64,000 bases of DNA, from contig NZ_CAMYMK010000008.1 in the NCBI RefSeq assembly GCF_947259545.1, positions 310,001 to 374,000 on the forward strand, written 5' to 3'. Origin of the DNA: an uncultured Marinobacter sp. (lineage in GTDB: Bacteria; Pseudomonadota; Gammaproteobacteria; Pseudomonadales; Oleiphilaceae). Positions 53,452 to 59,288 of the stretch are shown piece after piece. Positions within the stretch are counted from its first letter, which is position 1; every line of letters begins with the position of its first letter. The notes under the pieces were generated by a model. It was not told where the DNA came from, did not search any database, and saw only the letters and a program-made list of their open reading frames with translations. The position numbers and the translations under genes are program-made.

Positions 53452-54885
53452 TCAGGGATGAGGCATCGATCCGGTGTAGAACGTTTCGCAGTCGCCACCT
53501 GTAATCGCCCGCACCCCGCGTTTGACGAGGTCGAGCATCGGTCCGGTCACCGCGACCAGAACGTTGGGCCGCTCGATCTCGGGTTCGTGGAACGGGCCGG
53601 TAATTCGTTGTTCAACAACCGCACAGCCATCGGAGTCAATTACTGCTACCTGCATGTCCTGGAAGCGGTAATTGACGAAGTCCAGCGCCCCGGTCAGGGC
53701 CAGGCGGTTTTGTGGAGTTCGGAAGGCCACGTCACGCGCCTGCGCCACACCCCCTTCAATAACCCATTCAGAGATCATCTGATCAATGGTTGTGCTCCCC
53801 CCGCTGCCCTGAAGCACACCGGTAAACGCATAACCGCGCGTAACCACAAGACCTACCGGCCCGGCAATGAATACCGCACCAACATCAATCAGATTGAAGT
53901 TCTGGGTTTTGGTGTAATCCGCCAGCTCGTCATCCAGGTCATACCCATCAATGGTCAGTTCCCCCGAGCTCAAGCTGAGCATGCCGGTTGCGCTGTTACG
54001 GAGCTCCTGCCAGGTGTTGCCCTGCGCATTGAGAGACAACTCAAGATCGACGTTGCCGGTGGCGGCCTGATCCGGGTTCAGCTTGCCCATGAAGGCCCCG
54101 AAATCAAATTCAGCAAGCCCGTATTCAAGCCTGAGAGCGGGTGTTCGGGACGAAAGGTCCGCCTCAATCCATCCCGAGGCTTCTCCCTCGAAAGCAGTTG
54201 CCTTGACGGGCTTCAGTGTGAAGACGCCGCTATCGCCGCGGACCTTCATCGAGAAATCGGAAGCCTTGAACCGGCTCTGGCTAAGCGTATCGCATTGCAA
54301 GTCGCCTTCGGCGGCAAGAGATGCAAGCGCCTGGTCCGGCATGCCACCGTTATGGTGGATATTGCGCAGCTCCAGATCGCAATGCTCAAACAGCCATCCC
54401 ATCTCCGAGGTCTGATCAATATAGGTAAACCGTGCATCGGACACCCGCAACCGCCTCAGCGACAGTGCGTCGAGTTCCTCGGGATCGGTCCCGTCAATGT
54501 TGAACACACCCGGGCTGGAGCGCTTGATCACCAGTTCCGGCTGTTTTATATGGAGATCAATTGGGTGCACGTTACCGGTCAGCAGGCTGAAGGTGGCAAG
54601 CCCCACACTGACACTTTCAGCTGTGGCCACTACCTGCCCCTGTCTGCTTAGCTCGAGTTCTGCAATTGTGACGCTTGGTCCCTGCAGCAGGCCGAAGCGC
54701 AGGGGCTGACCGATCTGCACGTCCATGTTCGTGATGTCGCTGAGCCCGGCCTCAATCCGTTTTTTGACCTGATCAGTATCAACCAGCAACCAGGCTACCA
54801 GGACGGCTGCGATGAGCAGGGCGGCCAGCACCGAGACAATCACAATCGCCATTCGTATTCGAGTTGCCATCATTCCACCGACCAT
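53452..54885 (-). CDS. AsmA-family protein
   Basis: 477 residues. An N-terminal membrane helix (IVIVSVLAALLIAAVLVAWLL) leads into an AsmA domain (DTDQVKKRIEAGLSDITNMD, LSLRRLRVSDARFTYID) and a C-terminal AsmA repeat (LEYGLAEFDFGAFMGKLNPD, FRTPQNRLALTGALDFVN). AsmA-like proteins are bridge-type lipid-transfer or envelope-integrity proteins spanning the periplasm; this one is shorter than the 600-700 residues common in the family. It is transcribed 26 bases behind the papain-like protein gene. The exact start (54885, 54873 or 54870) is uncertain. Confidence 0.85.
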   Translation of the reverse strand: MVGGMMATRIRMAIVIVSVLAALLIAAVLVAWLLVDTDQVKKRIEAGLSDITNMDVQIGQPLRFGLLQGPSVTIAELELSRQGQVVATAESVSVGLATFSLLTGNVHPIDLHIKQPELVIKRSSPGVFNIDGTDPEELDALSLRRLRVSDARFTYIDQTSEMGWLFEHCDLELRNIHHNGGMPDQALASLAAEGDLQCDTLSQSRFKASDFSMKVRGDSGVFTLKPVKATAFEGEASGWIEADLSSRTPALRLEYGLAEFDFGAFMGKLNPDQAATGNVDLELSLNAQGNTWQELRNSATGMLSLSSGELTIDGYDLDDELADYTKTQNFNLIDVGAVFIAGPVGLVVTRGYAFTGVLQGSGGSTTIDQMISEWVIEGGVAQARDVAFRTPQNRLALTGALDFVNYRFQDMQVAVIDSDGCAVVEQRITGPFHEPEIERPNVLVAVTGPMLDLVKRGVRAITGGDCETFYTGSMPHP

Positions 54886-54911: not shown

Positions 54912-56882
54912 CTAAGGCGATGCTGCCCAGCTAGTGTAGCCAAGCTTCATAATACGGGCGACTTCGTCTTCCGGTATTGCTGACAGGTCTCCCAACTCCA
55001 GGTGGTCAAAATGGAATGCGTAAAGGCGGGAGGTAAATTCGGCAATGGGCAGGGAGGCTTCGCCGCGATACTCGCCGTGGCCCCGGGTGGAGCAGGTGAT
55101 GCCCTGGCCCCAGTCCTGGCCGCTGTCGTTGTTGGGGTTGAAGAAGTAGACCCGTATCTCGTCCTGGGGGCTGAGCCCGACTCTCAGGATGTTGATGGCG
55201 TGACGGCCCACGAAGCGCGAGGCGCTGTCCGTGACGGCAATGCCCGCCGGCTGGGCGTGGATGACTGGCATGTTCCCGTTGTAAAAAGGGTGGTAGCTGG
55301 CATAGAAGTGGCGAATGAAGCCGTCGTAGTCGTGCACCTTGCCGGTGTGGATATCGGCCACCACACGGAATCCCTGGCTGACCCACCAGCCATAGAATTC
55401 CGGGTTGATCCAGCGATGGGCATCGTCATCCCGGTTTTCACAACGGCGCCACATCTCCCCATAGATGCGATCCAGGTGGGGGATTAGGATCAGCGATACC
55501 GGGTCCACATCGACTGGTGTTCCCTCGACCAATCCGGGCTTAAGATCTCTGGAAGAGACGTTCTGGCCTTCGAACCGGCTCAGCACTTCGTTGTCCCGGG
55601 CCGCCCAGGCCAATACCTGGAGCAGGTAATCGGCTTCGTTGGCGGACCACATCGACAGACCGATGGCAGACTGGCAGGTGGGGTTGTTGCCCTGGCCCAC
55701 TCCCAGCGGCTGCCCCAAAAGATTGATGACACCGGCCAGCAGGAACACCCGGGGCGGCCGGGCATCGCCATAGACCCCTTGAAGAGTGTGTGCTGTCTCT
55801 GCTGACAGGCGGAGTTTGATTTGCCGCCACAAGGCCTGGGCCACGGAAGGCGTAAACAGCGAACCCCGTTCCAGCATTAAGGTGAGTCCGTAAACGGCCT
55901 GGCAGGTTTCCGGGTAGATGGCTTCGTCGATCAGGGCATGGACCAGTTCCGTGTAACAGTAGAGATCATCCAGACCGGTCATGGTCAGTCCCAGTGCGTC
56001 GGGTATCAGATCGTCCTGCTCACTGTTGCGCAGGAACCTCAGCATAACCGCATGATAAGGGGAGGCCAGACCGGTGTTGTGCATGCTGCGGGCAAAGCTC
56101 GTGGCTTCCGACGAGAGTGCTTCGTCGTCCATCTCCGTCAGCCGCTGCTCATAGATCTCCAGGCCCGGGTCTTCGGCGCTGCCCGGTGTGGGCGCAAACA
56201 GCGCGTTGACCAGACGGGTGGCGGCACCGTTGCCGGTGGTTTTTATCTTGGGGTCATAGAGGCACTTGGCGATCTGATCGATCATCTCGCAGATGCTGTT
56301 AACCTGTACTGGCCCCTGGTCCAGCAAACGCCAGACTTCCTCCACCAGACTGTCCAGCAGGCTCTCATAGCCAAGATGGGAAATCAGGTATCGGTAGAGT
56401 TCCTGGACAATCAGCCCGAGCTGTTTCGGGCGCTCCCGGTCGGCTTCCGTAAGTTGGCCTGACAGCAGATCCAGGTTCAGCGCCATCACCTGGGTCAGAA
56501 AATGCCGTGCCTGTTCCGCTGAAATGCCGGGGTGGAAGTAGTCACCCAGGGTGACGGCAAGCATTCTTAGCTCGCTGATGGCTTCTACGATGGTGGTAAC
56601 GGCCCCGGCCTCGCGCAGGGAGTGTTTGACCAGTGCCGGCTGCAGTATCGCCGGTTGAGCCCAGTCGCTGGCACCGAAGATGCCGGCGGATTCCAGCGAT
56701 CGGACCCGCCGGTACAGGACATCAAAGCCGCCCGGCATTGTCATCAGGATTCGGGCACGCTCCAACAGTCCAAGGCTGGAGGCGTTGGGGTTGATGTGAC
56801 GGGCTCGAGCGAACTCAGCCAGTGCTCCATCAAACTGCTTCGACGCCTGCTCGAGGGCAGGGTCGGCGTTTGGGCGTTCCAT
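54912..56882 (-). CDS. Large uncharacterised protein with papain/calpain-like Q-C-H-N tetrad
   Basis: 656 residues, no signal peptide or membrane helix. Residues 1-360 are helical and unfamiliar. From about 375 a cysteine-peptidase-like pattern appears: Q397 six residues before C403 in VGQGNNPTCQSAIGLSMWS (papain has Q19 and C25), H561 in GRHAINILRVGL, and N582 in VYFFNPNNDSGQDWGQ, 21 residues later, as in the calpain-style NP-x-x...W segment. The tetrad is my reading of the sequence and not a database match. The start is ATG 56882 after AGGGAA. Probably in an operon with the asmA-like gene; the substrate is unknown. Confidence 0.7.
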   Translation of the reverse strand: MERPNADPALEQASKQFDGALAEFARARHINPNASSLGLLERARILMTMPGGFDVLYRRVRSLESAGIFGASDWAQPAILQPALVKHSLREAGAVTTIVEAISELRMLAVTLGDYFHPGISAEQARHFLTQVMALNLDLLSGQLTEADRERPKQLGLIVQELYRYLISHLGYESLLDSLVEEVWRLLDQGPVQVNSICEMIDQIAKCLYDPKIKTTGNGAATRLVNALFAPTPGSAEDPGLEIYEQRLTEMDDEALSSEATSFARSMHNTGLASPYHAVMLRFLRNSEQDDLIPDALGLTMTGLDDLYCYTELVHALIDEAIYPETCQAVYGLTLMLERGSLFTPSVAQALWRQIKLRLSAETAHTLQGVYGDARPPRVFLLAGVINLLGQPLGVGQGNNPTCQSAIGLSMWSANEADYLLQVLAWAARDNEVLSRFEGQNVSSRDLKPGLVEGTPVDVDPVSLILIPHLDRIYGEMWRRCENRDDDAHRWINPEFYGWWVSQGFRVVADIHTGKVHDYDGFIRHFYASYHPFYNGNMPVIHAQPAGIAVTDSASRFVGRHAINILRVGLSPQDEIRVYFFNPNNDSGQDWGQGITCSTRGHGEYRGEASLPIAEFTSRLYAFHFDHLELGDLSAIPEDEVARIMKLGYTSWAASP

Positions 56883-57103: not shown

Positions 57104-58399
57104 ATGAAGTTTCCCTCAAGCACAGCTTTTGCCCTCTTGGGAGCAGCACTGATTGCGATCAGCTACGGGCTTGCGCGTTTTGCCTTCGGGCTGTTTGTGC
57201 CCCCAATCCGCGCAGAGCTGGAGCTGACGCCGGACGTGATCGGCATCATCGGCGCTCTGCCACTCATCAGTTTCGTATTTGCCACGATGGTCGCACCATT
57301 ATCCGCTGACCGTCTTGGTGCCCGCAATACGGCGATGCTTTCCGGTGGTTTCGGTACTGTCGGTCTGGCGCTGATCAGCCAGGCTTCCGGAGCTTTATCC
57401 CTTGGCGTGGGTGTATTCGCCTGTGGCATCTGCACCGGTCTGATGATGCCGGCACTGACCGCGGCCATGCAGGCGCTGGTGAAACGCTCCCTCCATGGGC
57501 GGGTCAGCTCGGTTATGAACGCTGGCACCAGCATTGGTGTAGTCATTGCTGTACCGACGATTCTATTCCTGGCCGGTGCCTGGCGTTATGCGTACGCGTC
57601 CTTTGCTGTTCTGGCGGTCATCGGGATGCTTGCCACGTGGATCTTCATTCCTTCCGTGTCGCGAGTCATGCCGTCGAACGCGGCGCCACCACCTTCGATC
57701 AGCGCCCTGCAGTGGTGGCGTCTGTTCAGGCTTTCACTGTTTGCTTTCATGATGGGCTTTGTCTCCGCGGCGTACTGGATCTTCGCGCCCGACCTGGTCG
57801 TCAACCTTGGCGCCCTGCCGCCCGATGCGACCGGGTGGCTATGGCTGGCGGTTGGTATTGCCGGTCTCGGAGGTGCCGTGGTGGCGGATCTGGCCGATCG
57901 CAACAACCCGCCAATCACCCAGGCACTCATGCTGATGATGCTTTCCGCGAGCCTGGCATTGCTCGCCGCCAGTCCCGATAACCTGGCGATTGCGGCATTC
58001 TCCGCACTGGTCTTCGGCCTGGCTTATATGAGTCTGACGGGCCTGTACCTGATGACCGGCATCCGCCTGTTGCCGGGCCGATTATCGATGGGTCCCGTAT
58101 TGCCTTTTATGGCTGTGTCGCTTGGACAGGCAACCGGGTCGCCTCTTGTAGGCTTGTTGGTGAATGAGTTCGGTTACTCAGATGCGTTTGCCATGTTTTC
58201 GGTGGTTGGCATTCTGGTGGCCATACTGTCTCCCCTGTATCCGCGCTACATTGAGCCGGAGCACGAGGAGGAGCGCGAAGAAGAGACTGGCCTCCAGGCG
58301 GCCTACGACTACCAGCTTCAGAATGAGGAGGGTGAGCCGTTCAGGTATGGAGCTCCCGAACGGCCTGGGCAAACAGCCCGGCAACCGGAAGGGTCGTGA
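57104..58399 (+). CDS. Major facilitator superfamily transporter
   Basis: 431 residues with about twelve membrane segments (FALLGAALIAISYGLARFAFG, IIGALPLISFVFATMVAPLSADRLGARNTA in part, carrying the loop 2-3 D-R-x-G motif). The group is related to YbfB/CynX-like transporters. The substrate is unknown. The C-terminal 45 residues are hydrophilic and Glu-rich. The start is ATG 57104 after GGAGGTGGA; the longer frame from 56900 overlaps the divergent gene. Its last 59 bases overlap the end of the PRPP-synthetase gene on the other strand. Confidence 0.85.
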   Translation: MKFPSSTAFALLGAALIAISYGLARFAFGLFVPPIRAELELTPDVIGIIGALPLISFVFATMVAPLSADRLGARNTAMLSGGFGTVGLALISQASGALSLGVGVFACGICTGLMMPALTAAMQALVKRSLHGRVSSVMNAGTSIGVVIAVPTILFLAGAWRYAYASFAVLAVIGMLATWIFIPSVSRVMPSNAAPPPSISALQWWRLFRLSLFAFMMGFVSAAYWIFAPDLVVNLGALPPDATGWLWLAVGIAGLGGAVVADLADRNNPPITQALMLMMLSASLALLAASPDNLAIAAFSALVFGLAYMSLTGLYLMTGIRLLPGRLSMGPVLPFMAVSLGQATGSPLVGLLVNEFGYSDAFAMFSVVGILVAILSPLYPRYIEPEHEEEREEETGLQAAYDYQLQNEEGEPFRYGAPERPGQTARQPEGS

Positions 58400-59288
58400 C
58401 CCGGCCCTGAACCTCTGGTTTCTGCTGCGGTGTAACGCTGTCGGTAATGAAAAGCTGATCCATGGACACGGCACGGTAAAGTTGCTCCGAACCCGGCCCG
58501 AACAGGCCATGGGTGATGACCCCGAACACCCTCGTGGCGCCCTTGTCTTTGCAAGCGTCGGCGGCGCGCAACAGGGTGGTGCCGCTCGCCACCATATCGT
58601 CAACGATGATGGCAACCTTGCCTGTCATGTCCCCGATCACGGCATCGCCGGTTACTTTGCCATCGCTTCGTCGTTTCTCCAGGAAGGCGGTGGGTGGCTG
58701 TTCGCCAGTGGCATCCGCCCAGGCGTCGCGAAACCGGTCCACGCGTTTGGTGCCCCCGGCGTCGGGGGAAACAATAACGACCGGCTCGTCACCTACACGG
58801 TCTATAAGTGCGTTGACGAACAGACTGTGGGCTTCCAGATGCACCGTCTGGCAGCGGAAGGCGTTGTCGAATGCGCCCCGGTTGTGAACTTCCAGCGCCA
58901 CCACGCAGTCCACCGCCATGGCTTCGAACAGTTGCGCCACGTAGCGTGTGGTGACCGGGTCTTGCTCCTTGGCGCGACGATCCTTGCGCGCATAAGCCAG
59001 ATACGGCACCAGCGCGGTGACGCGTTTCGCGCCGGCATCTTTAACGGTGGCGATGAAAAACAGCAGCCGTAGCAACTTGTCGTTAACGCTTAAGGCTTGC
59101 TCGCCAAAGAGGGTATGGAGAACGTAAACGTCCCGGCCCCGTACACTCTGTAGTGGCCGGGACTTGTGTTCGCCATCGTCAAAGGCGCGATCTTCATGGG
59201 GGGCCAGGCTGATGCCGAGCTGTGCGGCAACGGAACGACCAAACTCATGGCTACCTTCCAGGGCAAACAAAACCGGCTCGCTGTTCAT
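58341..59288 (-). CDS. Ribose-phosphate pyrophosphokinase paralogue
   Basis: 315 residues with the Prs layout: FDDGEHKSRPLQSVRGRDVYVL (ATP site, quoted in full as 22 residues would exceed the limit, so key residues are FDDGE and VRGRDV), YARKDRR, the PRPP-synthetase region VVIVSPDAGGTKR, a catalytic loop EKRRSDG, and the PRPP-binding loop IIVDDMVASGTTLL. It would make PRPP from ribose 5-phosphate and ATP. The essential prs gene of gammaproteobacteria normally sits beside ispE and lolB, which are absent here, so this is probably a second, specialised copy. AAGGAC precedes the ATG. Confidence 0.85.
   Translation of the reverse strand: MNSEPVLFALEGSHEFGRSVAAQLGISLAPHEDRAFDDGEHKSRPLQSVRGRDVYVLHTLFGEQALSVNDKLLRLLFFIATVKDAGAKRVTALVPYLAYARKDRRAKEQDPVTTRYVAQLFEAMAVDCVVALEVHNRGAFDNAFRCQTVHLEAHSLFVNALIDRVGDEPVVIVSPDAGGTKRVDRFRDAWADATGEQPPTAFLEKRRSDGKVTGDAVIGDMTGKVAIIVDDMVASGTTLLRAADACKDKGATRVFGVITHGLFGPGSEQLYRAVSMDQLFITDSVTPQQKPEVQGRVTTLPVAGLFAQAVRELHT

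Follow-up and report, generated by a model that had tools for sequence, protein, structure and literature searches.

What does the 656-residue protein encoded at 54912..56882 on the reverse strand of this stretch do, and with which partner? Its gene (P0001, defined by translation to the stop codon and by homologues) lies in a window of 64,000 nucleotides from an uncultured Marinobacter sp., the whole stretch of DNA that was analyzed, taken from a 4.08-Mb assembly of 11 contigs (G000). Neither NCBIfam nor the sequences of the PDB give a match to the whole protein, and its sole Pfam match, PriC (E 0.29), has 11.4 bits and so falls short of the cut-off of 23.3. Among the matches listed, the closest named relatives are Marinobacter proteins at 92 and 88% identity. 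P0001 belongs to an undescribed, unannotated family of marine and salt-loving bacteria. The evidence points to a papain-fold cysteine enzyme whose conserved partner is an ATP-grasp carboxylate-amine ligase, not the AsmA-like protein encoded next to it.

Conservation of the Proposed Catalytic Residues

The initial annotation proposed a tetrad of Q397, C403, H561, and N582, and re-reading the translation places all four where it put them. Q397 and C403, six residues apart, spell QGNNPTC; H561 sits in RHAINIL and N582 in FFNPNNDSGQDWG. The motif on its own is weak and not unusual: a loose Q-x5-C ... H ... N pattern fits 7 of the 98 open reading frames (ORFs) of at least 150 amino acids in the window, the P0001 gene among them, and 318 of 2000 shuffles of P0001. 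The tetrad is instead taken as real because it is conserved across homologues.

P0001 as query finds 2279 proteins in the database (E<=0.001), and a distant member used in its place finds 516. Conservation was read from 341 rows, made up of 241 database proteins (P0001 included, drawn from the best 120 of the 2279 and the best 120 of the 516 matches), 80 ORFs of 78 related loci, and 20 rows of an earlier alignment (A1); they contain some duplicates and many close relatives. Q397 (codon 55692..55694, on the reverse strand like the others), the proposed oxyanion-hole residue, and C403 (55674..55676), the proposed nucleophile, are identical in 341 of 341 rows. H561 (55200..55202), the proposed general base, is identical in 340, the one gap being a partial protein of 500 residues (P0150). 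N582 (55137..55139), the proposed third catalytic residue, is identical in 339, with gaps in P0150 and in an ORF that ends early (locus L071). The conservation expected by the initial annotation is thus borne out, as no row carries a substitution at any of the four positions. All four are also invariant in a 101-row alignment (A3) spanning 37-92% identity to P0001. N584 is as conserved as N582, and the latter is assigned the third role because of its place in the structural model described below.

Conservation extends beyond the tetrad. E438, D460, H469, D471, H489, H531, Q544, Q589, E604, and E608 are further invariant polar residues, and their number suggests a defined pocket. When 157 distant rows are split at residue 360, mean identity to P0001 is 51% in the C-terminal part vs 39% in the N-terminal part. 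Two predicted halves are distinguished: residues 1-361 (55800..56882, reverse strand) are less conserved and helical in the AlphaFold2 model, and residues 362-656 (54915..55799, reverse strand) form the predicted papain-like catalytic domain, as judged from whole-protein and domain models and their structural alignments.

Predicted Fold and Family Comparisons

In the AlphaFold2 model, C403 opens a helix (403-415), H561 lies within a strand (557-570), and N582 directly follows another (576-581). The C-terminal domain is thereby predicted to have the papain fold of clan CA, a layout in which the nucleophile begins a helix and the His and Asn/Asp belong to the sheet after it, and the clan CA order of Gln, Cys, His, Asn/Asp is kept throughout the 341 rows. 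Structural searches agree with this prediction. The first 21 rows returned by VIA-align for the whole model are all papain-fold proteins (calpains, staphopains, and a papain-like toxin). With the domain model, papain-fold proteins fill the first 35 rows, counting Lpg2622 and UfSP1, which have this fold. Foldseek matches of both models all have E>0.001, and a viral structure library gave nothing under E 0.001 (best 0.0025). The leading papain-fold rows and the invariant residues together uphold the earlier proposal of a papain- or calpain-like catalytic domain with this tetrad in an unannotated family.

Sequence profiles do not carry the relationship further. Comparison with C1, C2, C39, and transglutaminase families, to which the initial annotation had looked for kinship, gave no significant match. 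In Pfam searches of 46 members of the domain at E<=10, no member matches calpain (PF00648), papain C1 (PF00112), C39, or the transglutaminase families; at E<=1, whole P0001 matches neither calpain nor transglutaminases. A genome search with PF00648 matched 0 of 114, but also 0 of 14 controls, and so says nothing about C2 membership. The domain profile finds nothing among PDB sequences at E<=10. No exporter is encoded in the chain of P0001 itself, exporter linkage not having been searched separately.

The individual comparisons show where the resemblance lies. The family shares with papain (eight C1 sequences) the fold, Q-x5-C, G-x-H-A, and the N ... W-G order, but hhalign of the domain against those sequences aligned 32 columns at E 0.3, which is not significant. 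Calpain cores (MEROPS C2) have NPWG where P0001 has NPNN, and P0001 carries its helical half in front. Staphopain (C47), bleomycin hydrolase, and cathepsin B are at most 11-15% identical in the structural-match rows and have other domain make-ups. Transglutaminases use Asp as the third catalytic residue; the residue assigned here from the model is Asn wherever the row is not gapped. Of the three activities first suggested, peptidase, transglutaminase, or amidase of a new family, the new papain-like family stands and the transglutaminase assignment finds no Pfam match; peptidase, amidase, and acyltransferase are all candidates.

An ATP-grasp Ligase Accompanies the Family

The best 80 related loci were taken, of which 78 have a long family ORF. 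When ORFs within 5 kb of the family gene were clustered, antisense frames aside, one recurrent neighbor emerged, an ATP-grasp protein at 43 loci. Over the full available flank the ligase is present in 45 of the 78 loci, always with <1 kb between ORF ends; at L080 it is a 136-amino acid piece. By its sequence the partner matches the ATP-grasp family PF13535 (ATP-grasp_4): one representative, L093:11968-13530, reaches E 5.5e-6 and 26.5 bits, just below the cut-off of 27, and many close relatives carry a precomputed PF13535 assignment and are named ATP-grasp or carboxylate-amine ligase. The nearest solved relatives by sequence are L-amino acid ligases, which are weak matches (E 0.00086 and 0.0089).

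The position of the ligase gene was mapped onto a tree of the family (FastTree, 85 rows, long branches flagged). A supported clade of 25 rows has the ligase gene upstream and co-oriented; in 12 rows (8 Halomonas) it is downstream, and in 11 rows (9 Marinobacter) it is divergent. The 15-row clade of the window copy has no ligase in the DNA available, up to 10 kb per side. Two loci (L046:6068-11944 and L051:9986-15662) have two tandem family genes beside one ligase gene, possibly encoding two subunits. In six Halomonas loci the region upstream of the family gene also encodes another protein of ATP-grasp type (CPSase_L_D2) and a peptidase of S15 type, as at L086:5895-7445 and L092:5777-8176.

Co-occurrence was also examined across genomes. 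Among 274 genomes of the class, 8 contain the family, and these same 8 contain the ligase (E below 1e-200); 18 others have weak ligase matches (8e-19 or worse). Among 249 genomes of the phylum, the two genes likewise coincide in 8, and weak ligase matches (6e-5 or worse) occur in 3 more. With the samples merged, G000 being in each, both genes are present in 15 genomes, and no genome has one without the other at this stringency. The co-occurrences are not independent events because the genomes are related. A whole-genome ligase search was also made for 25 of the 35 loci lacking an adjacent ligase, which come from 24 genomes; all 24 encode it elsewhere, with E no worse than 8e-139, and in two genomes the gene is fragmented. 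Two of the genome records (G522 and G334) are probably one genome, since their match coordinates coincide. Complete ligases share 73-92% identity with the query, vs 42-64% identity to P0001 for the cysteine enzymes of one search, and the retention of the ligase at this level between genera suggests one fixed product. The distant relatives P0221 and P0234 are labeled as Myxococcota and Thermoanaerobaculia metagenome-assembled genomes; the family may therefore range beyond Pseudomonadota, provided those bins are clean.

The genome of the window holds three family copies: the window copy, a copy on C7 (62% identical), and one on C2 (54%). A whole ligase ORF (L003:77-1393) directly precedes the C2 copy, which falls in the clade with the ligase upstream. 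Beside the C7 copy is a divergent 244-amino acid ORF (L002:867-1601) in which the match to the ligase query of 520 residues is confined to residues 59-187; relatives of this locus have a whole ligase in that place, and the ORF is probably a decayed partner gene. Because no ligase gene stands alongside in its clade, the window copy would be paired with a ligase from another site in the genome.

Proposed Mechanism and Alternatives

The explanation that we consider probable is that P0001 is a papain-fold cysteine amidase, peptidase, or acyltransferase that acts in one pathway with the ligase, on the amide bond that the ligase makes. A common amide bond is proposed because papain chemistry is established and the ligase is present in every family genome tested. 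The ligase would spend ATP to form the bond, and the cysteine enzyme, probably in the cytosol, would cut, exchange, or mature it. C403 would attack the carbonyl of the amide (or thioester), assisted by H561 and N582, and Q397 would stabilize the oxyanion. If water then accepted the acyl group, the enzyme would be an amidase or peptidase; if an amine did, it would be an acyltransferase or transpeptidase. The analysis itself establishes the invariant residues, the predicted fold, and the co-occurrence and frequent adjacency of the ligase; catalysis, a substrate common to both enzymes, the reaction direction, and the cellular location are deduced. Glutathionylspermidine synthetase/amidase unites in one fused chain an ATP-dependent ligase with a papain-like amidase that cleaves the amide bond formed by the ligase; the P0001 family differs in that the two activities would be encoded by two genes.

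An intracellular papain-like protease is an unlikely alternative, in which the enzyme would act as calpains do, with the helical half for recognition or control and the ligase linked in another way, for example through a product that controls the protease. Calpain cores are indeed the best structural matches, and a helical half of this length might serve to bind proteins, but the ligase is found in every family genome tested, the many invariant polar residues suggest a narrow substrate, and none of the 46 domain members matches the calpain Pfam family.

A narrower form of the favored explanation appears more doubtful still: a BtrH-like acyltransferase that transfers to an amine an acyl group first activated by the ATP-grasp enzyme, both enzymes being synthetic and nothing degraded. 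BtrH is described as a papain-like acyltransferase of butirosin biosynthesis (PMC10318531, PMC2922099), a pathway that also includes the ATP-grasp enzyme BtrJ (for BtrJ-like enzymes, PMC4431377), and to that extent the two systems are alike. None of the 46 domain members matches BtrH_N (PF14399) or any other acyltransferase Pfam family at E<=10, no carrier-protein gene occurs among the conserved neighbors or the 15 largest clusters of small ORFs, and the P0001 pair is a two-gene set of other families. A non-catalytic papain-fold scaffold that controls or binds the ligase is very improbable, for although a shared fold shows no function and the activity is a predicted one, a dead scaffold would have no need of four catalytic positions that are never substituted in 341 rows.

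Returning to a cysteine enzyme that shares a pathway with the ligase, a fuller scheme can be offered tentatively, with less than even confidence. The two genes might constitute an undescribed amide-bond cycle, mainly of marine and halophilic bacteria, in which the ligase product is either a peptide tag or a peptide-like metabolite, perhaps a compatible solute. The papain-like family, with its helical half as receptor, would cut or transfer this product, the several paralogues being tuned to different conditions. If the pairing is as proposed, the papain-like superfamily gains a family beyond the reach of sequence profiles, together with a concrete and testable partner found in exactly the same sampled genomes; identifying the ligase product would name the pathway as well as the reaction that the cysteine enzyme catalyzes. 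A full-text literature search, within the portions of text that it covers, returned no paper recognizable as dealing with the family or its pairing with the ligase.

Neighboring Genes and Other Contexts

The AsmA-like gene (53452..54885, reverse strand; PF05170, E 7.2e-18) begins 26 bp downstream of the P0001 gene, and the initial annotation paired the two. At E<=1e-20, blastp finds no counterpart of it in any ORF of the 80 related loci, and it has no match in three of three congeneric genomes with a P0001 orthologue; one weak match occurs in G314. A partnership is therefore rejected, and the AsmA-like gene is judged incidental because its place beside the family gene is not conserved.

Other contexts were also set aside. 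Phage cargo finds no backing in a viral contig scan, where none of 165 pattern matches encodes a relative, nor does plasmid cargo, where 1 of 72,556 plasmid records matches, a Halomonas replicon of 1.83 Mb. PADLOC gave no match for P0001, the ligase, or P0188, an argument against anti-phage defense; P0188 is named 'Zorya protein ZorC EH domain-containing' in UniRef. A small precursor peptide near the pair was likewise rejected, as 14 of the 15 largest small-ORF clusters are confined to Marinobacter, and the remaining one comprises 3 Marinobacter and 2 Billgrantia loci.

An osmotic role is a weak lead. Mechanosensitive-channel or glycine-betaine uptake genes lie near the family gene in 16 of 80 loci (L027, L028, L039, L041, L042, L044, L068, L075, L079, L080, L085, L093, L095, L097, L104, and L106) vs 3 of 60 control stretches; it is only a lead because the query genes were chosen from family loci post hoc and the loci are related. 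Among the homologues, P0059 bears the UniRef name 'HDOD domain-containing', as a label only. Elsewhere in the window, a 315-amino acid ORF (58341-59288, reverse strand) may encode a protein of the ribose-phosphate pyrophosphokinase type, a resemblance judged by eye.
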